Virus record (IMG/VR): IMGVR_UViG_3300025131_000181
Coordinates: 1 to 36,244 of that record
Reading direction: 5' to 3' (one strand)
Source: a virus
DNA: 36,244 nucleotides
Shown here: piece after piece, positions 1 to 36,244 of the stretch
How positions within the stretch are numbered: position 1 is the first letter of the stretch
How the letters are laid out: every line of letters begins with the position of its first letter
Notes under the pieces: generated by a model
Database searches by the model: none
Told to the model about the DNA's origin: nothing
Seen by the model: the letters and a program-made list of their open reading frames with translations, nothing else
Position numbers and translations under genes: made by a program

Positions 1-97
1 AACTCACAAAGAAATACACGAGTTTTATAGGTAGGGGTAGGCGATTTTTGGTAACTTAGTAACCAACTTCATAATGGAGTCAAAAAGGAGCGCAATA

Positions 98-643
98 ATG
101 AACATGAAAAAAACAAAGTTGGAAGAATTAGTTTTCGATGATGAGAACGCAAGACGGCACAGTGAAGAAAATAAGTTTGCAGTTAAAACTTCACTTGAAA
201 AGTACGGTCAGCAAAAACCAATTGTCATAAACGAAGACAAGAAAATCATTGCCGGAAACTGCACCGCGGTTGTTGCAAAAGAACTTGGTTGGAAAACCGT
301 TGATACGGTTACAACAAAACTAACAGCAGAGCAAGCAACCGCGTATGCAATTGCAGACAATAGAACGAGTGAGTTGGGTGAATGGGAAGGCGATGTGTTG
401 AAGTTCTTGGTTGAGTCAAATGAAATAGATTTGGAATCAATCGGTTTTGACGTTGATTCTTTTAACATTGCGACAGGTGAAGCAGATTGGGGTGGTACTG
501 ATATTGACCAAACGCCTGAGAATGTTATAGAACCAACTTCAAAAATAATTGTTACTTGTGAAATGAACATGAAGTTAGAAGTAGAAGAAGCAATTAAAAA
601 ACTAATTTACAAAAACAAGTGGGAAGATGTAGAAATTAAGTAA
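98..643 (+). CDS. ParB/sulfiredoxin-fold domain protein
   Basis: N-terminal ParB-like nuclease/Srx domain, about residues 5-100. Visible hallmarks are the early K-x-E-E-L-V-F-D-D-E-N-A-R-R segment, a P-I-V-I-N strand, the I-I-A-G-N turn followed by a helix ending in LGW, and the A-Y-A-I-A-D-N-R-T motif typical of phage ParB-like proteins. The C-terminal part (about 60 residues) is not recognised. I prefer ATG 98 over ATG 74 because AAGGAG at 85-90 lies 7 nt upstream of it, whereas 74 has no ribosome site. The stop overlaps the start of the DpdA-like gene. ParB-like domains in phages often sit beside DNA-modifying enzymes, and the bacterial dpd DNA-modification island includes a ParB/DndB-like protein (DpdB). 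A role in target selection or NTP-driven assistance to DpdA is inference. Confidence 0.8.
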   Translation: MNMKKTKLEELVFDDENARRHSEENKFAVKTSLEKYGQQKPIVINEDKKIIAGNCTAVVAKELGWKTVDTVTTKLTAEQATAYAIADNRTSELGEWEGDVLKFLVESNEIDLESIGFDVDSFNIATGEADWGGTDIDQTPENVIEPTSKIIVTCEMNMKLEVEEAIKKLIYKNKWEDVEIK

Positions 644-1662
644 TGATTAGTTTTCCAAATGTTTTATGTTCTTATGCTTATTGCTACAACAGTAGGCACA
701 TGACAAGTATGCTTTGCAAATTAACAAGTGAAGCAAACACAAGGTTGCTGATTGACTCTGGTGCGTACACCGCTTTTAAATTAGGCAAACCTGTTGTTCT
801 TCAGAATTATATTGACTATATTAAATTGTTAGATGCTCATGGTGGAGCGTGGAACACAATTCAACTCGATGTTATTGGCAACAGTGAAAAAACAAAGCGA
901 AACTTAGACATCATGTATGAGCAAGGAGTTACTCCAATGCCTGTGCTGACTGTAGATATGAAGTCTAGTGAGTCATTAAACTTAATCGAATACAACAAGT
1001 ATATCTGCATAGCGGGTGGTCAAAAGTTTTGGTCTGGTGCAAAGGATTGGCAATGGCGAAGAACTTTAGATGTTGAGAAGTTTACAAACGGCAAAGCGTT
1101 GGCTCACTTTCTTGCCTTTGTAAGAATACCCGACTTATACAAGTTGCCAGTTAATTCAGCAGATGCTTCAACGTGGTTAGCAGGACAGCAGTATTCAAGA
1201 ATTGCTTGTTATGTGTCTGGTGGGAAAATGACAGGCGGTACTTTTTATCACCAGTTAAGACACTTGCCTAAGAATAAACTTAATAAAGATTTGATAAGGC
1301 ACTTAAACAGAGACAAGATAACAAAAACTCAATGGCAAGATAGAGAGTTAATGTCTGTTGGTGCGGGTTCATATTGTTCTTTTAAAACAGTTGCTAGTTT
1401 TGTTGCCTTGTGCAATGATGCAAGAAAGAGAGGCAAGAAAATCTTTTTAGTTGTATCTGGATGTGGTGACTTAAATACACTTGCAAGTGCTTGTATAAAC
1501 TCTGATGACAAAGGGTACTTGAATTGGACAAAAGCAAAAAAAATGTTTTTTGAATTAAAAGCATTGCGGAAAAAAAGTCAAACCGATTGGGAGTCAATGA
1601 TAGTTTCAATTATAAATAAACTTAATAAAGGAATAGAAATTGAAAACACGAATAGTAGTTAG
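643..1662 (+). CDS. dpdA: DpdA-like DNA guanine transglycosylase
   Basis: Probable TGT-fold (beta/alpha barrel) enzyme that swaps guanine in DNA for a 7-deazaguanine base. Visible signatures: an N-terminal strand, then D38-S-G-A-Y, comparable to the base-binding DSGA segment of DpdA and tRNA-guanine transglycosylases; Q74-L-D-V at the end of a barrel strand; and P-M-P-V-L-T on the next. A later C-terminal V-S-G-C-G-D lies where barrel strands continue. At 339 residues it is in the short phage DpdA size range, with no PUA domain as in archaeal ArcTGT. Its location four to nine genes upstream of queD, queE and folE supports the call. The start overlaps the preceding stop and the 3' end overlaps the next gene by 23 bp. 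The exact catalytic Asp cannot be fixed without alignment. Confidence 0.75.
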   Translation: MISFPNVLCSYAYCYNSRHMTSMLCKLTSEANTRLLIDSGAYTAFKLGKPVVLQNYIDYIKLLDAHGGAWNTIQLDVIGNSEKTKRNLDIMYEQGVTPMPVLTVDMKSSESLNLIEYNKYICIAGGQKFWSGAKDWQWRRTLDVEKFTNGKALAHFLAFVRIPDLYKLPVNSADASTWLAGQQYSRIACYVSGGKMTGGTFYHQLRHLPKNKLNKDLIRHLNRDKITKTQWQDRELMSVGAGSYCSFKTVASFVALCNDARKRGKKIFLVVSGCGDLNTLASACINSDDKGYLNWTKAKKMFFELKALRKKSQTDWESMIVSIINKLNKGIEIENTNSS

Positions 1663-2005
1663 AACAAGTCATCAAGGTTTTCACAGATGGAAGAATGCAG
1701 TTGGAACTTTTGACTGGTTGCTCATGAGAAAGCATCGGCACATATTTAACTTTGAACTAGAAGTTGAGGTGACTGACGATGATAGGCAAATAGAGTTTTT
1801 TGACTTTAAAGATAAAGTAGATACTGCACTTCGAGTTTTGTATCAAGATAAAGACAACCCATTTTACTTGGACTTTAAAAGTTGCAGTTGTGAACACATT
1901 GTAAAACAATTAGCAAAACAATTAAAAATGGGTTCAGAGTTAAAGTCAATTTCTGTTTTTGAAGATACAGAAAATGGTGCAAAGGTTTTGTTTGATGATA
2001 ACTAA
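1640..2005 (+). CDS. Divergent T-fold protein, QueD/6-PTPS-like
   Basis: Short protein (121 aa) with the layout of the 6-pyruvoyl-tetrahydropterin synthase/QueD family: H15 in a G-F-H-R-W turn, then H32-R-H34 placed like the zinc HxH pair of QueD, a strand ending in a V-T-D-D-D-R turn, a C-E-H-I-V-K-Q-L-A helix, and a final acidic strand with E-D-T-E-N-G. The catalytic Cys that normally precedes HxH is absent (W-L-L-M-R there), so it is probably not a simple second QueD. It begins at TTG 1640, served by AAAGGA at 1627-1632 (7-nt spacing), and overlaps the DpdA-like gene. A canonical QueD follows at 4525, so this paralogue may act on another pterin or 7-deazaguanine intermediate, or assist DpdA. 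Function is inferred only. Confidence 0.55.
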   Translation: MKTRIVVRTSHQGFHRWKNAVGTFDWLLMRKHRHIFNFELEVEVTDDDRQIEFFDFKDKVDTALRVLYQDKDNPFYLDFKSCSCEHIVKQLAKQLKMGSELKSISVFEDTENGAKVLFDDN

Positions 2006-2432
2006 AAAGATATTTTTTGGTATTGAATGTGAAGGCAAGTGGAATGGGTTGCCGACTATTTTTATTCCTTGCAGTTGCATGAAAACAAAGTTGCCTAAAG
2101 ATATGCCATTGCATTTGTATATTGGTGCGGGATGCGACTTAGTAAAAACACAAACTCAACTTGATAGTGCAATTGAACTTGTTGAAAAATACAACGATAA
2201 ACTTTTTACAATTGAAATAGATATAACTGCAAAGTTAAAGATACCAACTTGTTTGAACTCTCGGAGCGTAAGGTTGCTTTTTAACTTTAATCCCGAACTA
2301 AAAGATTTATCGCATATTTTAACTTGGACTAATTCTGAAGTAAAAATAACAAGCAAAGAATCACTTGCAGTTTACTCAGCCCCGCAATTTTTAGAAATCA
2401 ATTATTTGGAGGACTACTTGCATGAAGTTTAG
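1995..2432 (+). CDS. Unrecognised protein of the deazaguanine cluster
   Basis: I do not recognise this 145-residue protein. It has no signal peptide or membrane segment. It starts with an alternating hydrophobic strand (F-F-G-I-E-C-E-G) followed by a G-L-P-T-I-F-I-P-C strand. This pair loosely recalls the opening S-L-Q-G-E-G...T-x-F-V-R of QueE, but no Fe-S cysteine motif follows. The rest is predicted alternating strands and short helices with a charged C terminus. ATG 1995 is preferred over an upstream in-frame codon because AAAGG at 1981-1985 precedes it at normal distance. The start overlaps the previous stop by 11 nt and its end overlaps the glycosyltransferase start by 11 nt, so it is translated within the modification operon. 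A structural partner of DpdA or of the T-fold protein is possible. Confidence 0.65.
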   Translation: MITKKIFFGIECEGKWNGLPTIFIPCSCMKTKLPKDMPLHLYIGAGCDLVKTQTQLDSAIELVEKYNDKLFTIEIDITAKLKIPTCLNSRSVRLLFNFNPELKDLSHILTWTNSEVKITSKESLAVYSAPQFLEINYLEDYLHEV

Positions 2433-3600
2433 AAAATTATTTTATATGGGTCTCGAACCATACGAAGGTAGATATACCTTGCAGTTGCAAAAATGGAGTG
2501 AACAAGCGTTTGCTAAACTTGGTATCGACTATGTAATTGTTGAAGGCAAAACTATTGACGATACGAAAGCAATATCTGTTGGGCAAGTTTTAGACGCACA
2601 TGGTCGGTCGTTTTTTGGCATGAGCCAACTTATGAACTTGGTGCAACTAATGAAGTCGGGCGAATGCTCGGGTGAAGATGTGGTTTTTTTTGAAGATATG
2701 TTTCAAGCAGGAATGGAATCTTTGCCTTACATACTGTGCCAAATACCAGAAAACCAACGACCTACAATTTACTTAAGGTGTTTGGCTCAGTCAATAGACC
2801 CAGACGACTTTGTTCATGTTTGGGGAATGAGTAGATGGATGAGTTGTTATGAGCAGATGTGCAATGAGATTCCAAATGTGAACATACTGGCAACCAGCGA
2901 AGAAATGGTTGCGAATATGAAAGTTGCTAATTGGTCTGCTCCTATATTTAACATTGCAGGACTTAGTTTTGGTAAAGACGAAGTTATTTCTAGGGTTAAG
3001 TCCGTCAAAAAATGGAGCGAGAGAAAAGATAGAGTTTATTTTTCTGCAAGGTTTGACCAAGAGAAGCAACCAGATTTTTATATGGATTTAGTTTTGCAAG
3101 TCAAAAACATTATGCCAGATGTTGAGTTTGCAATTTTCAGTGGTGGCGATTTGAAAAGCAATAACCAAAAATATGTAGACAGGGCTTTAACTATGCAAGA
3201 CGAAGGCTTGCTTTCGATGTACGAAAACCTTTCTAAGAACGAGTATTATGAGTTAGTGAATGATAGTAAAGTCCTTTTCAATTGTGCTTTGCAAGATTGG
3301 GTAAGCAACACGGTTTCAGAAGCAGATGCTCTTGGTTGCAATGTTGTGTTTCCTGCATATCGTTCTTTCCCAGAAACTTTTGCAAATGACCACAGGAGAA
3401 TGTATGTTCCTTGGTCTATGCAAGATGCAGTTAATAAAGTCGTTGCTTCATTGAAAAATGCAAGTAATGACATTGGAAAGATTAGCGATTGGACAAACTG
3501 CACTATTGAAAGAATGGTTGACATAATGCAAGGCGAAGGCGAGCAATGGGCGAGGAACAGTAATCGTTATAGGGATAACATACAAAAGGCAAAGTTTTGA
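2422..3600 (+). CDS. GT-B fold glycosyltransferase (GT4-like)
   Basis: A 392-residue protein with the two-domain pattern of GT-B glycosyltransferases. The C-terminal Rossmann half opens near residue 200 with R-V-Y-F-S-A-R-F-D-Q-E-K-Q-P. It continues with a helix, a strand I-M-P-D-V-E-F-A-I-F-S-G-G-D, and the nucleotide-sugar-binding stretch Y-E-L-V-N-D-S-K-V, then D-W-V-S-N-T-V-S-E-A-D-A-L-G-C and V-F-P-A-Y-R-S-F-P-E. The E-A-x-A-x-G segment is where family 4 enzymes bind the donor phosphates. There is no membrane segment. A GGAGG (2408-2412) precedes ATG 2422. It overlaps the GalE-like gene (TTGA). Donor and acceptor are unknown. Its place between dpdA and queD suggests that the acceptor is the modified base in phage DNA, or its precursor. 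Confidence 0.75.
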   Translation: MKFRKLFYMGLEPYEGRYTLQLQKWSEQAFAKLGIDYVIVEGKTIDDTKAISVGQVLDAHGRSFFGMSQLMNLVQLMKSGECSGEDVVFFEDMFQAGMESLPYILCQIPENQRPTIYLRCLAQSIDPDDFVHVWGMSRWMSCYEQMCNEIPNVNILATSEEMVANMKVANWSAPIFNIAGLSFGKDEVISRVKSVKKWSERKDRVYFSARFDQEKQPDFYMDLVLQVKNIMPDVEFAIFSGGDLKSNNQKYVDRALTMQDEGLLSMYENLSKNEYYELVNDSKVLFNCALQDWVSNTVSEADALGCNVVFPAYRSFPETFANDHRRMYVPWSMQDAVNKVVASLKNASNDIGKISDWTNCTIERMVDIMQGEGEQWARNSNRYRDNIQKAKF

Positions 3601-4532
3601 AAGTTTTAGTAACAGGAGCAAGTGGTTATATTGGTTCGCAAACTTGCAAGTGTCTTGTTAAGAATAACCATACTGTGACTGCAAATGACTTGGAAGATAT
3701 AACTCATGATTATTTTTCAACAAAAAAAATCTGTAACTATAAAGATTTGAAAGTTAAAGATGTAGATTGTTTGGTTCATATTGGAGCGACAAGTCTTGTA
3801 ACTCCAAGTCTTATCGACCCGCGACAGTATTGGGAAAACAATGTTAGCAACACAGTTGAGTTATTAAAAAATTGCAACAAAAAAACCAAAGTTATATTTG
3901 CTTCGAGTGCAGGAGTATATGGCGAACCAAGTAATGGAGTTTGTTTTGAAGATATGGAGTTTAATCCTTGTAGCCCTTATGGTTGGAGCAAGCGAATGGT
4001 TGAACTAATACTTGAAAGTTATTACTCGGCTTATAACCAATCGAGTATTAGTTTGCGTTTTTTTAATGTTGCAGGAGCAGACACCGAAAGTGAAATGGGT
4101 CAAAAAAGTAATGCGAGTCATATTATCGCGAAGGCAATGGAAAGTGCAATTTCAAAAAAGCAGTTTACATTGTTTGGCAATGACTACGATACTCCGGATG
4201 GAACTTGTGTTAGGGATTATGTTCATGTAGAAGATATTTCTCAAGGTATCCTAGATAGTATTGCTATGTTGCAAAATAAAGTAGGTGCTTATCAAATTAA
4301 CTTGGGCGGTAAATCTTGCTACAGTAATTATGAAATACTTGAAGCAATTACTAGTCAAACAGGATTAAAAATCAACTTAAAAATAAGCGAGTCAAGACAA
4401 GGCGAGCCAAGTGTTCTTATTGCTGATACAGCAAAAGCAAAGCAACTATTAAATTGGAAACCTTGTCACTGCTTAAACTCAATTATTAAAACAGCGTATC
4501 TTTGGTATCAAAAAGGAAACAAAAATGATTAG
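3597..4532 (+). CDS. UDP-glucose 4-epimerase-like SDR enzyme
   Basis: Extended short-chain dehydrogenase of the GalE type. NAD-binding G7-x-x-G10-x-x-G13 sits at the N terminus with D31 at the end of the second strand. Catalytic Y128-x-x-x-K132 lies in S-P-Y-G-W-S-K, and A-S-S-A-G-V-Y-G-E precedes it. The later R-F-F-N-V-A-G-A-D, D-G-T-C-V-R-D-Y-V-H-V-E-D-I and the E-x-R-Q-G-E-P type C terminus are typical of UDP-hexose 4-epimerases (311 aa, slightly short for the family). It would interconvert UDP-glucose and UDP-galactose or related UDP-sugars. The start is TTG 3597 with AAAAGG 6 nt upstream, overlapping the glycosyltransferase stop as TTGA. It probably supplies the sugar donor to that glycosyltransferase. 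The exact substrate is not determined. Confidence 0.82.
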   Translation: MKVLVTGASGYIGSQTCKCLVKNNHTVTANDLEDITHDYFSTKKICNYKDLKVKDVDCLVHIGATSLVTPSLIDPRQYWENNVSNTVELLKNCNKKTKVIFASSAGVYGEPSNGVCFEDMEFNPCSPYGWSKRMVELILESYYSAYNQSSISLRFFNVAGADTESEMGQKSNASHIIAKAMESAISKKQFTLFGNDYDTPDGTCVRDYVHVEDISQGILDSIAMLQNKVGAYQINLGGKSCYSNYEILEAITSQTGLKINLKISESRQGEPSVLIADTAKAKQLLNWKPCHCLNSIIKTAYLWYQKGNKND

Positions 4533-4941
4533 TTGCACAAGGAAACTTTGGTTTTGTGCAGGGCATAGAGTAAAAGGACATGAAGGGAAATGCAGACACC
4601 TTCACGGTCATAACTACATTGTCTACATAACAGCACAAGCAAGTTTAGATTCGATTGGTAGAGTTATTGACTTTAGTGTATTGAAGCAAGAGTTTGGTTC
4701 GTTTATTGATGACAACTTCGACCACGGTTTCCTTGTTTGGGAAGATGACAAGGAAGTGATTGATGTACTAAAGAATATGGGTGAGCAAAAGATTTTTGTA
4801 ATGCCAACAAACCCAACAGCAGAAAACATTGCACAATTCTTGTTAGATAACAGTGGGGATATTCTTGACAGCAAAGGAGTTGAAGTTACGATGATAAAAG
4901 TATACGAAACTGAAAACTGTTTTGCAGTAGCAACCAGATGA
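4525..4941 (+). CDS. queD: 6-carboxytetrahydropterin synthase QueD
   Basis: T-fold enzyme converting dihydroneopterin triphosphate to 6-carboxytetrahydropterin, the second step of 7-deazaguanine synthesis. Zinc ligands H14, H27 and H29 are present in A-G-H-R and L-H-G-H. The catalytic Cys is C23 in G-K-C-R-H. The downstream signatures are G-R-V-I-D-F, the N-F-D-H base, N-P-T-A-E-N and the final V-Y-E-T-E strand. The 138-aa length is normal. ATG 4525 has AAAAGGA upstream and overlaps the epimerase stop by 8 bp. Together with QueE and FolE in the same chain it completes the route from GTP to CDG. Confidence 0.93.
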   Translation: MISCTRKLWFCAGHRVKGHEGKCRHLHGHNYIVYITAQASLDSIGRVIDFSVLKQEFGSFIDDNFDHGFLVWEDDKEVIDVLKNMGEQKIFVMPTNPTAENIAQFLLDNSGDILDSKGVEVTMIKVYETENCFAVATR

Positions 4942-5387
4942 CTTTCAAAACAGATTTGAAATATGGCAAGGATGCGGAGTGCCTTATTCTGAAAAGAATA
5001 CAAAAAAAATATCCACTTGCCTTTATGATTGAAGGGAAGTTCAAAGCGTTCGACTTATTCGTACCCGAGATAGAAAAAGGTGTAGAAATTAAGTCAGACA
5101 GACAAGCGGAACAAACTGGCAACGTATTTATTGAAATAGAATGCAACCATGAGTATTCGGGGATTCAAACTACAAAAGCAACGTGGTATGTGTACCAAAC
5201 CAAAAGCAGAATGTTTTGGGTAACAACAGAAGCGATAAGGCAATACTTGATTAGTAAAGCAAAAGAATTGCGGTTGTTTAACAATACTCCTAAAGGCGAG
5301 TATTCTGCGGTGCGTGGTTACTTGGTGCCAATAGATGACTTTGAAGAACTTTCATTCCATGTAGATTCTGAAGGAGAAAAACTATGA
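4938..5387 (+). CDS. PD-(D/E)XK nuclease-like protein
   Basis: 149-residue protein with the restriction-endonuclease-like core: an N-terminal helix carrying G-K-D-A-E14, D39 in K-A-F-D-L-F-V-P, then E50-I-K52 after a G-V strand. This E-D-ExK layout is the metal-binding signature of the fold. A following E-I-E-C-N segment and a W-Y-V-Y-Q-T strand fit other members in which the chain continues as sheet. No DNA-recognition domain is apparent. It overlaps queD by ATGA and queE by ATGA, so it belongs to the modification operon. Possible roles are degrading unmodified host DNA (self DNA being protected by the modified base) or recombination/repair; neither can be chosen from sequence. Confidence 0.7.
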   Translation: MTFKTDLKYGKDAECLILKRIQKKYPLAFMIEGKFKAFDLFVPEIEKGVEIKSDRQAEQTGNVFIEIECNHEYSGIQTTKATWYVYQTKSRMFWVTTEAIRQYLISKAKELRLFNNTPKGEYSAVRGYLVPIDDFEELSFHVDSEGEKL

Positions 5388-6019
5388 AAGGCTACTGGGT
5401 AAACGAAATCTTTTACTCGTTGCAAGGTGAAGGCGTAAGGTCTGGTACGGCTAATGTATTCGTGAGGTTCAAGGGTTGCAACTTAGAGTGTGCAATGGAA
5501 GAAGGCGAAAAGTCAATAGGTGGGTTTGACTGTGATACCGAGTTTGAGTCAGGTATTAAGATGTCACCTCATGACTTGGTTGATGCTTGCGAAGCAATGG
5601 CTGTAAAGCAAGCGAATAGTAACCATGTTCAGTTCAGTGTAATTTTTACAGGTGGTGAACCTGCAATCCAATTGGACAAAGAATTAGTTTCAATGTTCAA
5701 AGACAATGGTTGGTATACAGCAATAGAAACAAATGGAAGCATGGACGTTTCAGATTTAGGTTTAGATTGGATTACAGTTTCGCCAAAGGTTGCGGAGCAT
5801 TGCGTAAGACAACTAACAGCAGACGAAGTTAAATATGTAAGAGGCAACCTGCAAGGAATACCTAAACCAAAATGCAAGGCGAAGAATAAAGTTATATCCC
5901 CTGCGTTTAATGGTTTAGAAAAAAACCAAGATGCTGTTCTTTGGTGCATCGAATTAGTAAAGCAAAATCCAGATTGGCAACTAAGTGTGCAAGACCATAA
6001 GTTATGGAGAATAAGGTAA
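5384..6019 (+). CDS. queE: 7-carboxy-7-deazaguanine synthase QueE
   Basis: Radical SAM enzyme that rearranges 6-carboxytetrahydropterin to CDG. N-terminal N-E-I-F-Y-S-L-Q-G-E-G and V-F-V-R-F-K-G-C-N are diagnostic, and T-G-G-E-P binds SAM. Cluster cysteines appear as C32, C36 and C50 (C-x3-C-x13-C), followed by D-T-E-F. This differs from both the ordinary CxxxCxxC spacing and the C-x14-C-x2-C form of E. coli QueE, so one iron ligand is uncertain. I-E-T-N-G and the V-S-P-K strand are present. ATG 5384 overlaps the nuclease stop, and the stop adjoins folE. Length (211 aa) is normal. Confidence 0.92.
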   Translation: MKGYWVNEIFYSLQGEGVRSGTANVFVRFKGCNLECAMEEGEKSIGGFDCDTEFESGIKMSPHDLVDACEAMAVKQANSNHVQFSVIFTGGEPAIQLDKELVSMFKDNGWYTAIETNGSMDVSDLGLDWITVSPKVAEHCVRQLTADEVKYVRGNLQGIPKPKCKAKNKVISPAFNGLEKNQDAVLWCIELVKQNPDWQLSVQDHKLWRIR

Positions 6020-6573
6020 TGAGTATAGGCGAAGAAGGTATTAGAGATTTACTTATTGAGATTGGGCAAGACCCAGACAGAGAAGGATTGATAGACACGC
6101 CAAAGCGTGTAGTAAAAGCAATGAAAGAAATGACCATAGGTTACAACCAAAGTCCAAAAGAAATACTAAGTAGACAATTTGAAGGTGATAACTACGATGA
6201 CTTAGTTATTGTGAGAGGTATTAGGTTTGCTTCTTTATGTGAACACCACCTCTTGCCTTTTGTTGGAACTTGCGGAGTTGGTTATTTGCCAAGAAGAAAA
6301 GTTGTTGGCTTGTCAAAGTTACCGCGACTTGTCGAGTGCTATTCTAAACGGTTACAACTACAAGAAAGAATGACTAGGCAGATAGCCAACGCGGTAATGA
6401 TTCACTTAGTGCCAAGAGGCGTTGGAGTTTATGTGCAAGCGACCCATCAGTGTATGGCTTGCAGAGGTGCAAGGCAACCCGATGCAGACATGGTAACAAC
6501 AACTGTACTTGGAGAGATGCGGGAAAACCCTTCGCTAAAGTCAGAGTTCATACAAGCGGTGCATCATGGGTAG
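6019..6573 (+). CDS. folE: GTP cyclohydrolase I (FolE)
   Basis: Converts GTP to dihydroneopterin triphosphate, the entry step for 7-deazaguanine (and folate) synthesis. In the numbering from ATG 6019, zinc residues are C74, H77 and C145, in C-E-H-H-L-L-P-F and H-Q-C-M-A-C-R-G. E-G-L-I-D-T-P-K-R-V and V-G-L-S-K-L-P-R complete the family signature. About 185 aa, like the catalytic core of bacterial FolE. I prefer ATG 6019 (TAATG overlap with queE; GGAG at 6006-6009) over ATG 6004, which lacks a ribosome site but would add five residues. It is the last gene of the CDG block and probably boosts flux from the infected cell's GTP pool. Confidence 0.94.
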   Translation: MSIGEEGIRDLLIEIGQDPDREGLIDTPKRVVKAMKEMTIGYNQSPKEILSRQFEGDNYDDLVIVRGIRFASLCEHHLLPFVGTCGVGYLPRRKVVGLSKLPRLVECYSKRLQLQERMTRQIANAVMIHLVPRGVGVYVQATHQCMACRGARQPDADMVTTTVLGEMRENPSLKSEFIQAVHHG

Positions 6574-6588
6574 ACAAGGAAAAAAACG

Positions 6589-7242
6589 ATGTGTGGCAAA
6601 ATGAAACTAATTAAAAAGAATGGTTACTATTCGGGTGATGTGTGGGAGTTCAATTTACCTGCGGGGCATTCCTGTCCTTACGCTTGCAAATGTTTAACCA
6701 AAGCCGATAGACAAACAGGCAAACAAACATCTGGTCAGCAAAGAACCTTTAGGTGTTATGCCGCAAGTGCCGAGCGTTTTCCTGCGGTCAGAAAAAGCCG
6801 TTGGGCAAACTTTGAAGAACTTAAAGAAATGAAAAGTGAAAAAGAAATATATGTGGCACTTTTTCAAATGTTCACAGGAAAAGAAAGTGCAGTTCGTATC
6901 CACGGAAGTGGTGACTTTTTCAATCAAAGATATTTCAATGCTTGGGTACTTATTTGTCAACTAATGCCAGAGGTTGAGTTTTGGGCTTTCACAAAGTCAG
7001 TGCCGTTCTGGTTAAACTGTGAGTATTCCATACCAAGCAATTTTACTTTAACTGCAAGTCGTGGTGGTTCTCACGACCATCTCATTGACAAGCACCAACT
7101 CAAAAACTGTGAAGTCTTTTTAACAAGCAAGGACGCGGTGGCTTCGGGTCTACCGATTGATACAGATGATACCCTTGCTAGAGAATCAACAACCAACTTT
7201 GCTTTGGTCGACAATTACGAGAGGAAAGAGCAGTATGGGTAA
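6589..7242 (+). CDS. Gp88-family phage protein
   Basis: Resembles the phage 'gene product 88' family. It has N-L-P-A-G-H-S-C-P-Y-A-C-K-C near residues 22-35, then an F-R-C-Y-A-A-S-A-E-R-F-P segment, V-R-I-H-G-S-G-D-F-F, Y-F-N-A-W, and F-W-A-F-T-K-S, and ends near an L-T-A-S-R-G-G turn. C29, C33 and C35 with the C58-like Cys of FRCYA suggest a metal or Fe-S site; the order recalls radical SAM-like barrels, but this is unproven. ATG 6589 has AAGGA 8 nt upstream. It follows folE by 15 nt and its 3' end overlaps the small terminase start by 8 nt. Biochemical role is unknown to me; neighbours would allow one in base modification or DNA processing. Confidence 0.75.
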   Translation: MCGKMKLIKKNGYYSGDVWEFNLPAGHSCPYACKCLTKADRQTGKQTSGQQRTFRCYAASAERFPAVRKSRWANFEELKEMKSEKEIYVALFQMFTGKESAVRIHGSGDFFNQRYFNAWVLICQLMPEVEFWAFTKSVPFWLNCEYSIPSNFTLTASRGGSHDHLIDKHQLKNCEVFLTSKDAVASGLPIDTDDTLARESTTNFALVDNYERKEQYG

Positions 7243-33787: not shown

Positions 33788-33810
33788 GGTGATGGAATAG
33801 ATTGAGGAAG

Positions 33811-33847
33811 CCCTCATACAACGAAAGTTGTGTGGGGGTTTTTTTTT
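33811..33847 (+). terminator. Strong rho-independent terminator
   Basis: CCCTCATACAAC-GAAA-GTTGTGTGGGGG: 12-bp stem including two G-T pairs, GNRA-type tetraloop, then T9. Very likely an efficient terminator. The region up to 33906 has no gene; a promoter for the next unit may lie in its A/T-rich part but no good consensus is seen. Confidence 0.92.
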
Positions 33848-33906
33848 GGACTTTTTTTACCTAGGACAAAGAATAAACAGATACGATATTAAATAGAGCA
33901 AGTAGT

Positions 33907-34437
33907 ATGAAACTTACACAAGACATTATGGACGACCTAGCACATATCACGTTGAGGTGGTCGAGGCGAATGCACTATCTATTCCCACTATGGGAAGAAG
34001 ATGAGTTGCGTAATGAAGCATTCTTGGTAAGCATCAGATTACTTGAACGTGGACGATACAAACGAGAGTTGTCTTCGCTGTCCACCTTCCTCTGGCACGC
34101 ATTGAAGTTTGATGTTGGTCATAGGTACAAGCGTGCAAATGCCCAAAGGTACTTAACTTGCCCCGATGGTGTAAGGCGTTATCAGCAAAAGGAGTTGAGT
34201 CAATGCGACCTAACCAAAGCACAGCAGTACGAATATGACGAAAAAAATACTGATGACGATATGCCTCTGTCTTTCATTGATGTACAAGTAGTACACAATG
34301 AGTGGGCTTCGGGTAGAATTCAAGGACATACCGAAAAGGATTTGGTTATGCGAGGTATGAGTTTGAAAGAACAACGAAGGCAAGCACAGGAGTTCAAGAA
34401 TAACTATGAACAGCAGAGCAAAAGGTGCGAGAGGTGA
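33907..34437 (+). CDS. Sigma-70-like factor
   Basis: 176 aa. W-E-E-D-E-L-R-N-E-A-F-L-V-S-I-R-L-L-E-R-G, then Y-K-R-E-L-S-S-L-S-T-F-L-W-H-A-L-K-F-D-V-G-H-R-Y-K-R resembles sigma region 2 (the F/Y..f.tyl...lr helix). The end has a possible region-4-like helix pair (D-L-V-M-R-G-M-S-L-K-E-Q-R-R-Q-A). Phage sigma-like factors of this size serve late transcription. Divergent, so also possibly another helical regulator. Confidence 0.65.
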   Translation: MKLTQDIMDDLAHITLRWSRRMHYLFPLWEEDELRNEAFLVSIRLLERGRYKRELSSLSTFLWHALKFDVGHRYKRANAQRYLTCPDGVRRYQQKELSQCDLTKAQQYEYDEKNTDDDMPLSFIDVQVVHNEWASGRIQGHTEKDLVMRGMSLKEQRRQAQEFKNNYEQQSKRCER

Positions 34438-34738
34438 ACGGTATTATGCTAATTGGTTGAAACAAACTTTTGGTTTGAATGCAAGACGTGGACAACAGTA
34501 TTGTGGCTTGGCAGGTAACGCTGATGTAGTTGATGGCTTTCCAAATACTCATGCAGAGGTTAAGTTCGTTGAGAAACTAAACATTGATAAGGCAATGGAA
34601 CAGGCATCAAAGGATTGTGGAAACAGTATTCCTTATGTTGCACATAAGAAGAATAGGTGTGATTTACTAATTACTATTAAGGCAAAAGACTTAAAGGCGT
34701 TTAGCGAAAGTGTAATGGGTGTAATGAATGACAAGTGA
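34406..34738 (+). CDS. Hjc-like Holliday junction resolvase
   Basis: 110 aa with a PD-(D/E)XK core: R-A-K-G-A-R-G-E-R-Y-Y-A (conserved Glu), then A-D-V-V-D-G-F-P-N-T-H-A-E-V-K-F (Asp and ExK), and the K-A-M-E-Q-A-S-K-D-C-G helix. Length and order match small Hjc/VRR-type resolvases of phages. Overlaps the sigma-like gene by 32 nt with ATG 34406. Confidence 0.78.
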   Translation: MNSRAKGARGERYYANWLKQTFGLNARRGQQYCGLAGNADVVDGFPNTHAEVKFVEKLNIDKAMEQASKDCGNSIPYVAHKKNRCDLLITIKAKDLKAFSESVMGVMNDK

Positions 34739-34967
34739 CCAAGACCCATTCCAATCAATAAATGGTTGGACTGAAAACAAGAAATTAGTTCTACATAGAC
34801 TAGAGGAGATAGAACATCATGTGCGTAGTATGGAAAAAAGGATTAGCAAGATTGAAAAAGATATTGCCGTTCAGAATACACAGACTAGAATCTTTGCAGG
34901 TATCATTGGTGCGGTTGCAGGTCTTGTTCCTGCTTTGCTTTCTATCCTTATGGCAGGTAGGATGTAG
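34728..34967 (+). CDS. XhlA-like membrane protein, holin/lysis
   Basis: 79 aa. A coiled-coil (about 18-48: L-H-R-L-E-E-I-E-H-H-V-R...I-S-K-I-E-K-D-I) followed by one transmembrane helix (F-A-G-I-I-G-A-V-A-G-L-V-P-A-L-L-S-I-L-M). This is the build of XhlA-type holin-associated proteins. ATG overlaps the resolvase stop. It overlaps the next gene for 149 nt in another frame. Confidence 0.7.
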   Translation: MTSDQDPFQSINGWTENKKLVLHRLEEIEHHVRSMEKRISKIEKDIAVQNTQTRIFAGIIGAVAGLVPALLSILMAGRM

Positions 34968-35307
34968 TGCAATAGGTAGAATGTTTAATCCTGCACCAAC
35001 GATAGGAGAACAGGTTGGTCATGTTGCAAGGGAAGTAAGTAGCGCAGGTAACGAACTTGCTATGCTTAGTTGGATAGGTGGGATTGCCACGTTGGTTGGT
35101 ATCGCCTCACTTGTAATAACAAGAGGTAGTATGGGAATGAGGGCAATTATCATCGGCGTTATACTAATCGTACTCAACTTCGCAGTAGCAAACTACATGA
35201 GTTGGATATTAGTACCTGTGCTTGTTGCAACAGGTTTGATTAGTTTGGCGTGGTCATATAAGACAGTTAAAGAAATGTTACATAAAAAGGAGTTTAGGAA
35301 TGGCTAG
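34819..35307 (+). CDS. Nested multi-span membrane or lipoprotein
   Basis: 162 aa from ATG 34819, supported by AGAGGAG at 34802-34808 although it lies inside the XhlA-like gene in the +1 frame. Residues 1-49 read as a basic start and a hydrophobic stretch ending W-Q-V-G-C, like a lipobox. From about residue 77 there are three more hydrophobic segments: L-S-W-I-G-G-I-A-T-L-V, I-I-I-G-V-I-L-I-V-L-N-F, and W-I-L-V-P-V-L-V. A shorter start at ATG 34981 remains possible. Likely a lysis-region envelope protein; not a recognised spanin. Confidence 0.6.
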   Translation: MCVVWKKGLARLKKILPFRIHRLESLQVSLVRLQVLFLLCFLSLWQVGCSAIGRMFNPAPTIGEQVGHVAREVSSAGNELAMLSWIGGIATLVGIASLVITRGSMGMRAIIIGVILIVLNFAVANYMSWILVPVLVATGLISLAWSYKTVKEMLHKKEFRNG

Positions 35308-35407
35308 TTTATTAGGAACAGTTTGGTTTGTTGGTTTAGTTGGTGTTGTTTGTTTTTGTGCAGGTGTATGGTGGTCTGATAAGGTGAAGAACTTACTTGG
35401 CAAGTAG
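35300..35407 (+). CDS. Small membrane peptide
   Basis: 35 aa: T-V-W-F-V-G-L-V-G-V-V-C-F-C-A-G-V-W-W, one transmembrane helix, then S-D-K-V-K-N. AAGGAG at 35287-35292 lies 7 nt before ATG 35300. Overlaps the upstream gene by 8 nt. May be a small holin-type or pinholin-type peptide in the lysis region. Confidence 0.6.
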   Translation: MASLLGTVWFVGLVGVVCFCAGVWWSDKVKNLLGK

Positions 35408-35415
35408 AAATTATT

Positions 35416-35670
35416 TTGCAAGCAGTTAGAGTGAATCATTCAAACGCCCACATCCCATCACCAACAAAGGAATTGATACTTGAGTTGGCGCGTGGTATAC
35501 ATTGCACAATAGCAGGTATGGCAACTGATGATATAGGCGAGAAGCACGAACAGTTTGACAGATTGCCTGAGAATGTGCAGAGGTACTGGATTGCAGGTGC
35601 AAAGATAGCGTATGCTATTATTACAGTACACGGTGGCGGTCAAGTCGAGAAGATACCTGATGCCAAATAG
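35416..35670 (+). CDS. Unrecognised protein near lysis region
   Basis: 84 aa from TTG 35416 (a GTG at 35431 is also possible); the ribosome site is poor. L-I-L-E-L-A-R-G-I-H-C-T-I-A-G-M-A-T helix, L-P-E-N-V-Q-R-Y-W and A-K-I-A-Y-A-I-I-T-V. No known family. Its end overlaps the HNH gene by 11 nt. Confidence 0.5.
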   Translation: MQAVRVNHSNAHIPSPTKELILELARGIHCTIAGMATDDIGEKHEQFDRLPENVQRYWIAGAKIAYAIITVHGGGQVEKIPDAK

Positions 35671-35998
35671 AATCAAGAACTTCTGCCGTGGTTTGAATTG
35701 CAACAACAAAGCAAACGTAGGCAGTACGTTGTGTTGTGGCTGTGCTAAAGAAAAGAAAGAACAACAACTAACTCCATCGGAACAAGGATATGATTATCAT
35801 TGGTCGAAGGTAAGTAAGTTAGTAAGACGTAATGAACCAGTGTGCAGAATGTGCAAACAAAAACTTGCAACAATGGTTGACCATATTGTTCCATTGAAGC
35901 AAGGTGGCGAACGGTTGTCACTCGACAACTTACAACCATTATGTTTGCCATGTCATAACACAAAAACGAATAACGATAAAGCAAAGTATTCGTATTGA
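35660..35998 (+). CDS. HNH endonuclease
   Basis: 112 aa. C-terminal HNH core: V-C-R-M-C-K-Q, V-D-H-I-V-P-L-K-Q-G-G, S-L-D-N-L-Q-P-L-C-L-P-C-H-N. Two C-x-x-C knuckles hold a zinc ion; D-H and the final H are catalytic. An additional N-terminal Cys cluster (C-R-G-L-N-C, L-C-C-G-C) is present. ATG 35660 is preferred to an upstream extension. HNH genes beside terminases help cos cleavage in HK97-type phages; here the terminase pair is some 7 kb away, or near if the genome is circular. Confidence 0.88.
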   Translation: MPNRIKNFCRGLNCNNKANVGSTLCCGCAKEKKEQQLTPSEQGYDYHWSKVSKLVRRNEPVCRMCKQKLATMVDHIVPLKQGGERLSLDNLQPLCLPCHNTKTNNDKAKYSY

Positions 35999-36060
35999 AT
36001 CGCAACGTAAATAGCGAGAGAATCGCAACATCGTACAAATGCCCTCAAATGTGTATTGTA

Positions 36061-36090
36061 ATGCGTTATTAGGTGTAATACCTTACGCAT
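36061..36090 (+). repeat. Imperfect inverted repeat
   Basis: ATGCGT...ACGCAT outer arms with AGGT-GTAAT-ACCT inside. Lies in a 246-nt gene-free end together with the next element; could be an operator, origin or part of a packaging site. Confidence 0.5.
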
Positions 36091-36185
36091 ATCTTAGACG
36101 CAGTACAATCGCCTGTGCGACCGTTTAAGAACTCAGATGACAAATGGCATTCAGAACCCCATGAAACGCAGTACACGCAGTGCTA

Positions 36186-36221
36186 GCCCCCTTAAACGCA
36201 AAAGGGGGGCATATTGCGTTT
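36186..36221 (+). promoter_or_regulatory. GC hairpin with alternative pairing
   Basis: GCCCCCTT (36186-36193) pairs with AAGGGGGGC (36202-36210, one bulge). The 8-nt loop AAACGCAA (36194-36201) is an exact complement of TTGCGTTT at 36214-36221. The two foldings could alternate or form a pseudoknot. A GTTTTT tract lies downstream at about 36233. May be a leader of the modification operon if the ends join, or a cos-like element. Confidence 0.5.
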
Positions 36222-36244
36222 ATAACATGGCGTGTTTTTCGTAA

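Follow-up and report, generated by a model that had tools for sequence, protein, structure and literature searches.

Gene content of the operon

The IMG/VR virus record IMGVR_UViG_3300025131_000181 comprises 36,244 bases of a small phage; this whole stretch is termed the window in the following. From position 643 to 6573 it carries a gap-free operon on one strand, with gene ends that overlap or abut, in the order dpdA, PTPS2, a gene for a 145-amino acid (aa) protein, a glycosyltransferase (GT) gene, galE, queD, a gene for a 149-aa protein, queE and folE (Table 1). A previous reading of the sequence alone (the sequence-only reading) had proposed that the sugar enzymes of this operon decorate a 7-deazaguanine base in phage DNA, and we report here on this putative DNA hypermodification system. 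The DpdA-like, GT-B, GalE, QueD, QueE and FolE genes on which the proposal was built were all found in place and in an overlapping operon, together with three genes that it had left unnamed, those for PTPS2 and for the 145-aa and 149-aa proteins.

Table 1. Genes of the operon and its upstream flank (the ends of the 145-aa protein gene are approximate)
Gene or product	Position	Strand	Basis of assignment
dpdA, DNA-guanine transglycosylase, DpdA1-like type	643..1662	+	phrog_887; alignment with Iggy DpdA
PTPS2, QueD-fold paralogue	1640..2005	+	phrog_17812 (E 1e-16); profile versus QueD; motifs
145-aa protein, probable f5 homologue	1995..2432	+	hhalign; position in the cassette
GT-B glycosyltransferase, DpdA-associated phage family	2422..3600	+	fold, identity, linkage, tree
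galE, UDP-glucose 4-epimerase	3597..4532	+	TIGR01179
queD, 6-carboxytetrahydropterin synthase	4525..4941	+	Pfam PTPS (E 2.6e-29)
149-aa protein with possible PD-(D/E)XK-like stretch	4938..5387	+	phrog_13596 (E 1.6e-15)
queE, 7-carboxy-7-deazaguanine synthase	5384..6019	+	TIGR04508 (queE_Cx14CxxC)
folE, GTP cyclohydrolase I	6004..6573	+	Pfam (E 7.9e-69); TIGR00063 above cut-off
ParB-like gene, upstream edge of the variable cassette; flank, outside the proposed mechanism	74..643	+	phrog_620 (E 5.4e-34)

The DpdA-like protein of the window matched phrog_887 (E 1.9e-19) and, as a single sequence, the annotated DpdA of Pseudomonas phage Iggy (blastp, E 7e-16); the alignment of its family with the Iggy protein reached E 6e-49 (hhalign). 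Residues D38, D76, H155 and D174 were invariant in a comparison with eight diverse relatives, H155 and D174 also having counterparts in the Iggy sequence. The best PDB match was weak and was to the DNA-guanine transglycosylase 7ui4 (E 0.15). Used as a single-protein query against viral contigs, the window DpdA gave no match, and its relatives were collected instead with GT, QueD, a PTPS2 alignment and a closer DpdA subset as queries. The profile of another family found in these loci, f2 (DpdA2-like), matched no PDB sequence and no Pfam or PHROGs family. It was assigned to the tRNA-guanine transglycosylases (TGT) on the basis of a DSGGFQ motif, a colinear hhalign alignment with Escherichia coli TGT (E 7e-4) and a weak match to an annotated TGT-domain protein; "DpdA2" is a label of this analysis and is not meant to equate f2 with the DpdA2 that Hutinet et al. 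describe for nt-1. As window-type DpdA and f2 could not be aligned with each other by hhalign, they were treated as separate types.

FolE, QueD and QueE, the enzymes for the synthesis of 7-carboxy-7-deazaguanine (CDG), are all encoded in the window, the QueE match to TIGR04508 (E 2.5e-41) lying under the equivalog cut-off of that model. PTPS2 aligned with QueD profiles at E 7e-8 (hhalign). In QueD, three histidines bind zinc and a C-terminal glutamate binds the pterin ring. An alignment of 12 PTPS2 members revealed that the three zinc-type histidines and the C-terminal Glu are retained, and that the catalytic Cys and the Asp-His positions of QueD are lost; the protein probably acts on CDG.

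QueC (PF06508) was not found in the window record or in the complete phage records W01, W02, W04 and W05, with positive controls scoring, and Xanthomonas phage X1 (W03) gave a match below the cut-off only. Nearly all records with GT and PTPS2 that were searched, complete phage genomes included, likewise had no QueC; the exceptions were a partial match just above the cut-off in G011 (L042) and matches below it in G014 (L065) and G021 (L085). Clear QueC genes were present in locus L009 (GT, without PTPS2), in the sister phage L003 (without GT) and, as Gat-QueC, in the GT-bearing Xanthomonas phage PhiXhv-12. Window positions 33788-36244 correspond to L003 4439-6894 and positions 1-481 to L003 6903-7382, so that the two ends of the record lie 8 bases apart in L003. 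By this comparison the record appears to cover almost the whole genome, cut open at an arbitrary position, and the absence of queC is therefore probably real. Because QueC is lacking in the window and in nearly all of its GT- and PTPS2-bearing relatives, the inserted base probably derives from CDG and not from preQ0, preQ1 or archaeosine.

The GT scored 23.8 bits (E 3.7e-5) against Pfam Glycos_transf_1, just short of the curated cut-off of 26.4. Its AlphaFold2 model adopts a GT-B fold (mean predicted local distance difference test score, pLDDT, 89.5), and Foldseek retrieved glycogen synthase (E 4e-12) as well as PimA, BshA and MshA, all of them retaining GT-B enzymes. In the donor site, R210 and K215 are invariant and E300 is nearly so. 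Judged by sequence and predicted fold, the GT is a divergent member of the GT4-type retaining GT-B glycosyltransferases; a hydropathy check identified no membrane segment. The GalE assignment rests on the NCBIfam galE equivalog TIGR01179 (275 bits versus a cut-off of 262.3), and 75 of 83 GT-bearing loci had a GalE-type gene at most 6 kb from the GT.

The 145-aa protein is probably homologous to the f5 family, with which it aligned at E 0.0011 (hhalign) and shares the motif FxGxExE..G..T.F..HxYxGA. Members of f5 (e.g. L012 8501-9031) are encoded between DpdA and GT in large phages, and the 145-aa protein is likewise placed. The f5 model (pLDDT 86.7) had no PDB match at E <= 0.001; this type of small protein is possibly a partner of DpdA or of the GT. 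In the 149-aa protein, a nuclease motif was recognised by eye only, in the PD-(D/E)XK-like stretch DLFVPEIEKGVEIKSD. The protein also occurs in L002 and L004 and is absent from the GT-less sister L003. It could be a nuclease acting on unmodified DNA, its part in the system being uncertain.

Linkage of the glycosyltransferase to DpdA and its transfer between phages

The sugar hypothesis had rested on one locus and was tested on more than 200 related ones. A GT-seeded search of IMG/VR returned at least 598 confirmed stretches, 80 of which were fetched; with the final models, DpdA was detected in 79 and PTPS2 in 78 of these 80 loci. Among 80 loci seeded with PTPS2, 47 had both DpdA and GT, nine DpdA only, 24 neither and none GT only. 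DpdA was thus present in all 47 GT-positive loci (Fisher p 2e-13, a value that ignores kinship, for which the GT tree accounts only partly). Seeding with relatives of the window-type DpdA gave loci with GT in 31 of 38 cases. Wherever GT and DpdA occurred together (160 loci), they were encoded on the same strand, within 3 kb of each other in 142 and overlapping or abutting in 28. Loci with the window type of DpdA usually showed the order QueD-QueE-FolE-PTPS2-(radical SAM)-GT-DpdA, often with an overlap of GT and DpdA. The order of the window itself, ParB-DpdA-PTPS2-GT-QueD-QueE-FolE, recurred in L221-L223, the GTs of which are just 22% identical to that of the window. The co-occurrence of DpdA and GT, proposed as a check along with the original hypothesis, was strongly positive and extended over three DpdA types and unrelated phages.

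The GT subfamily is a phage family nearly absent from bacterial genomes. In about 85,000 of the latter, a close GT was encoded on four contigs only, all from metagenome-assembled genomes; three of these show DpdA-PTPS2-GT, and the fourth includes merely part of the GT. Among 50,697 cultured phage records, about 20 contained the GT family, and all representatives inspected (PA5oct, Xanthomonas X1, Sinorhizobium Phosso, Acidovorax ACP17, Synechococcus BUCT-ZZ01 and Xanthomonas PhiXhv-12) had it in a deazaguanine context. The Pseudomonas phages Paride, Deifobo, Cassandra and Ettore are further cultured phages with the GT. In Phosso the DpdA2-like gene is located elsewhere in the genome, away from the GT, and no DpdA was recognised in the inspected stretch of PhiXhv-12. 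With the GT tied to DpdA and restricted to phages, and with an operon committed to making and inserting a deazaguanine, the idea that the sugar enzymes act on the deazaguanine gains support.

In the GT tree, which contains several long branches, the three DpdA types were intermixed, with 10 type changes; well-supported branches force at least 4-6 changes per type. In view of these 10 changes, shared ancestry alone is insufficient to account for the linkage of GT and DpdA. The window GT is nested, with a support of 100/96, among GTs of large phages that have another DpdA type. It is 62-74% identical to these, while PTPS2 and FolE are distant (about 35% and about 32%), indicating that the GT is passed between phages and becomes established in deazaguanine operons.

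Exchange was also evident at close range. Over most of the shared backbone, the window and its sister phage L003 are about 90% identical, but between ParB and QueD L003 carries a DpdA only 59% identical to that of the window, without PTPS2, GT and GalE. A QueC-like protein (phrog_1550, E 1.7e-17) and a dehydrogenase, encoded at L003 8529-9972, replace the segment from PTPS2 through the small unknown protein and GT to GalE. This swap is the pattern expected of a modification cassette in arms-race exchange. The dehydrogenase, lactate/malate dehydrogenase-like by reading and with no PHROG match, is an odd partner for a deazaguanine pathway.

Proposed pathway and alternative explanations

We consider it likely, with a probability of roughly 0.7, that the operon encodes a phage DNA hypermodification system in which a CDG-derived base is inserted by DpdA and then glycosylated by the GT. 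GTP would be converted to CDG by FolE, QueD and QueE, steps that are based on established pathway knowledge and on the gene content. PTPS2, in place of the missing QueC, would transform CDG to the base for insertion, perhaps by decarboxylation, and DpdA would exchange guanine in phage DNA for this product. The presence of GalE points to galactose as the sugar; the epimerase is proposed to supply UDP-galactose, from which the retaining GT-B enzyme would transfer the sugar onto the base once it is in the DNA. Through its bulk, this sugar would then shield the DNA from restriction enzymes of the host and from other defences that read DNA. Catalysis by PTPS2 and GT, DNA as the acceptor, galactose as the sugar and protection as the outcome are inferences from what was observed, namely which genes are present, their folds and conserved motifs, their linkage, the horizontal transfer of the GT and the exchange of cassettes. 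PTPS2, which is also present in the Cellulophaga phages phiST and phi13:1, may be the predicted CDG decarboxylase DpdL or a DpdL relative. Cui et al. 2023 reportedly describe both this prediction and CDG-level bases in phage DNA, their 7-deazaguanine variants reportedly having no sugar on the base.

Several points weigh against this pathway. CDG offers a carboxylate only, and in plain 7-deazaguanine there is no evident acceptor O or N at C7, which makes the acceptor atom the weakest point of the mechanism. The linkage could take the form of a glycosyl ester or of an N- or C-glycoside, a decarboxylated base providing just C7 or ring nitrogens for it. In around 30% of the PTPS2 loci, GT was absent and no DpdA was recognised, so that PTPS2 is not specific to the sugar system. 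T4 alpha- and beta-glucosyltransferase were absent from the 50 best Foldseek matches listed for the GT and from its 11 PDB profile matches, and its nearest folds are general GT4-type enzymes, pterin glucosyltransferases among them. The loci were sampled by sequence patterns, and the counts favour conserved relatives and are not population estimates; moreover, the models used to detect DpdA, GT and PTPS2 were built from the same loci. The literature searched holds no nucleoside analysis of these phages. In a more specific version of the pathway, which we put forward tentatively and regard as rather unlikely in full, PTPS2 would decarboxylate CDG to 7-deazaguanine, DpdA would insert it, and the GT would join the sugar to the nucleophilic C7, yielding a C-glycoside in DNA. 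As sugar-supply genes are swapped between phages, the sugar in this version would be interchangeable (galactose, an amino sugar or another).

The order of the last two steps could be reversed, with the GT glycosylating the free base or nucleotide and DpdA inserting the ready-glycosylated base. The adjacent, often overlapping genes for GT and DpdA, and the adjacency of PTPS2 and GT in many loci, would fit this order. We regard it as improbable, considering that the sugars on DNA bases and on queuosine tRNA are known to be added after insertion, and that a bulky substrate needs a wider DpdA pocket, yet three DpdA types pair with the GT. That the target is tRNA, the DpdA homologue and the GT making a glycosylated queuosine-like tRNA that aids phage translation, appears quite improbable, even though DpdA is a homologue of TGT, E. 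coli TGT can be aligned with the wide f2 set and glycosylated queuosine is established in animal tRNA. The window transglycosylase groups with the DpdA proteins of phages (Iggy, E 6e-49), for which modification of phage DNA has been demonstrated (PMC6884629), the window contains no tRNA gene, and the cassettes are exchanged between close phages as expected for anti-restriction genes.

Pterin synthesis starts with FolE and PTPS, and the tetrahydrobiopterin glucosyltransferases 5ze7 and 9v0l are among the structural matches of the GT; FolE, the PTPS proteins and the GT might accordingly form a glycosylated pterin comparable to cyanobacterial biopterin glucoside, with no role in DNA. However, 5ze7 and 9v0l rank under many other GT4-type enzymes and are missed by the sequence profile. 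The operon also encodes QueE and DpdA, neither of which is involved in making pterin glycosides, and DpdA is repeatedly found with the GT; in L009, L219 and PhiXhv-12 the GT has different gene partners, but deazaguanine genes are still among them. On these grounds a pterin product is very improbable. Sugar gene clusters in cyanophages are usually attributed to surface polysaccharides (PMC7824862), and by analogy GT and GalE could modify a virion protein or the host surface, with the dpdA neighbourhood as a passenger linkage. This is made highly unlikely by the repeated association of the GT with three types of DpdA in phages that are unrelated, by the near-absence of the close GT subfamily from bacterial genomes and by the lack of a membrane segment. 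A protein or host surface sugar as acceptor, named in the sequence-only reading as the outcome that would speak against its proposal, thus found no support, and a function of the GT in host-surface modification or lysogenic conversion was given low weight for the same two features, its phage restriction and lack of a membrane segment.

Phage DNA with 7-deazaguanines is known from phages 9g (dG+) and CAjan (dPreQ0) (Hutinet et al. 2019, PMC6884629). With these systems the proposed one shares FolE, QueD, QueE and DpdA, and would share base exchange after replication and protection from restriction; it differs in that the window has no QueC and no amidotransferase, and instead PTPS2, GT and an epimerase. 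The word "glycosyl" does not occur in the main text of PMC6884629. A dedicated GT that places a sugar on a modified DNA base would be shared with the glucosyl-hydroxymethylcytosine of T-even phages, the arabinosyl-hydroxymethylcytosine of RB69-type phages, base J and glucosylated hydroxymethyluracil; there the acceptors are pyrimidines with a hydroxymethyl handle, here a purine analogue would be combined with a GT of GT4-type fold. To our knowledge, all sugar-bearing DNA bases are pyrimidines with such a handle. Galactosyl- and mannosyl-queuosine in animals likewise have a sugar on a 7-deazaguanine, but in tRNA and on the cyclopentenediol of queuosine; enzymes for the queuosine side chain (QueA/QueG type) were not identified in the operon, no search having been aimed at them.

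No report of a 7-deazaguanine that bears a sugar in DNA was found in the literature that could be searched, and a 2026 review of jumbo phages mentions deazaguanine and not glycosylation. If the proposed pathway is correct, sugar-bearing 7-deazaguanine would add a new class to the known DNA hypermodifications, and a role would be given to a GT family that is phage-specific and unannotated, as well as to its QueD-like partner. The genes would flag phages with a likely resistance to restriction, and possibly to CRISPR nucleases, and would provide enzymes for DNA labelling at G. The IMG/VR stretches with GT relatives suggest that the system is common in environmental phages, and cultured phages with these genes grow on laboratory strains (Paride and PA5oct, for instance, on Pseudomonas aeruginosa PAO1), which makes the prediction accessible to direct testing.

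Variation among relatives and flanking genes

The sugar genes differ among the relatives and comprise GalE, a DegT aminotransferase, a UDP-glucose/GDP-mannose dehydrogenase, a phosphomannomutase and PIG-L. A PIG-L-type gene lies directly 5' of the GT in PhiXhv-12 (L224, 5669-8903), L009 (7434-8806) and L219 (6507-7927), only the PhiXhv-12 copy scoring above the Pfam cut-off. QueC or Gat-QueC was encoded near the pair in two of the three (Gat-QueC in PhiXhv-12, QueC in L009), DpdA in L009 and L219. The fold class of the GT and this pairing are shared with BshA/BshB and MshA/MshB (GT4 enzyme plus PIG-L deacetylase); those belong to bacterial thiol pathways, whereas the phage pairs sit with deazaguanine genes. 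The gene pairs suggest transfer of N-acetylglucosamine followed by deacetylation in a QueC-type variant. Phages may thus follow one of two routes, either via CDG with PTPS2 or via QueC with a PIG-L-type deacetylase.

Many loci with QueD-QueE-FolE-PTPS2-GT-DpdA encode between PTPS2 and GT a radical S-adenosylmethionine (SAM) protein of about 430-470 aa with a GCPxGCxFCPST-type motif. Examples are L193 5687-6982 (Pfam match checked), L189 5314-6675, L207 5589-6944 and L110 10278-11684. PTPS2-radical SAM-GT is the commonest arrangement in small phages, and the window is without the radical SAM gene. The protein might install the sugar-accepting group in the loci that have it. In BUCT-ZZ01, a second GT-like gene (L091 9007-10350) lies directly upstream of the DpdA-type gene, a possible sign of a disaccharide or of a further sugar.

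PTPS2 without GT was observed in L094, L097 and L098 (Cellulophaga phi13:1, Chryseobacterium MA9V-3 and Vibrio D479), linked to MazG and/or a deoxynucleotide-kinase-like gene and to an unknown phrog_20335 protein; these loci possibly use another type of base inserter. Some large phages encode a Vut_1/YhhQ-type transporter near the cassette (L075 15194-15841; f33 family, 13 loci); YhhQ is a known preQ0 transporter.

The ParB-like gene is also located 5' of dpdA in L221 and L003. A promoter and terminator scan gave signals not above those of shuffled sequence. Downstream of the operon, HK97-type head genes (terminase, portal, protease and capsid) were named from their sequences. A gene at 6589-7242, between folE and terS, is present in L003 and missing from L002 and L004; its product presumably resembles mycobacteriophage gene-88-type proteins.

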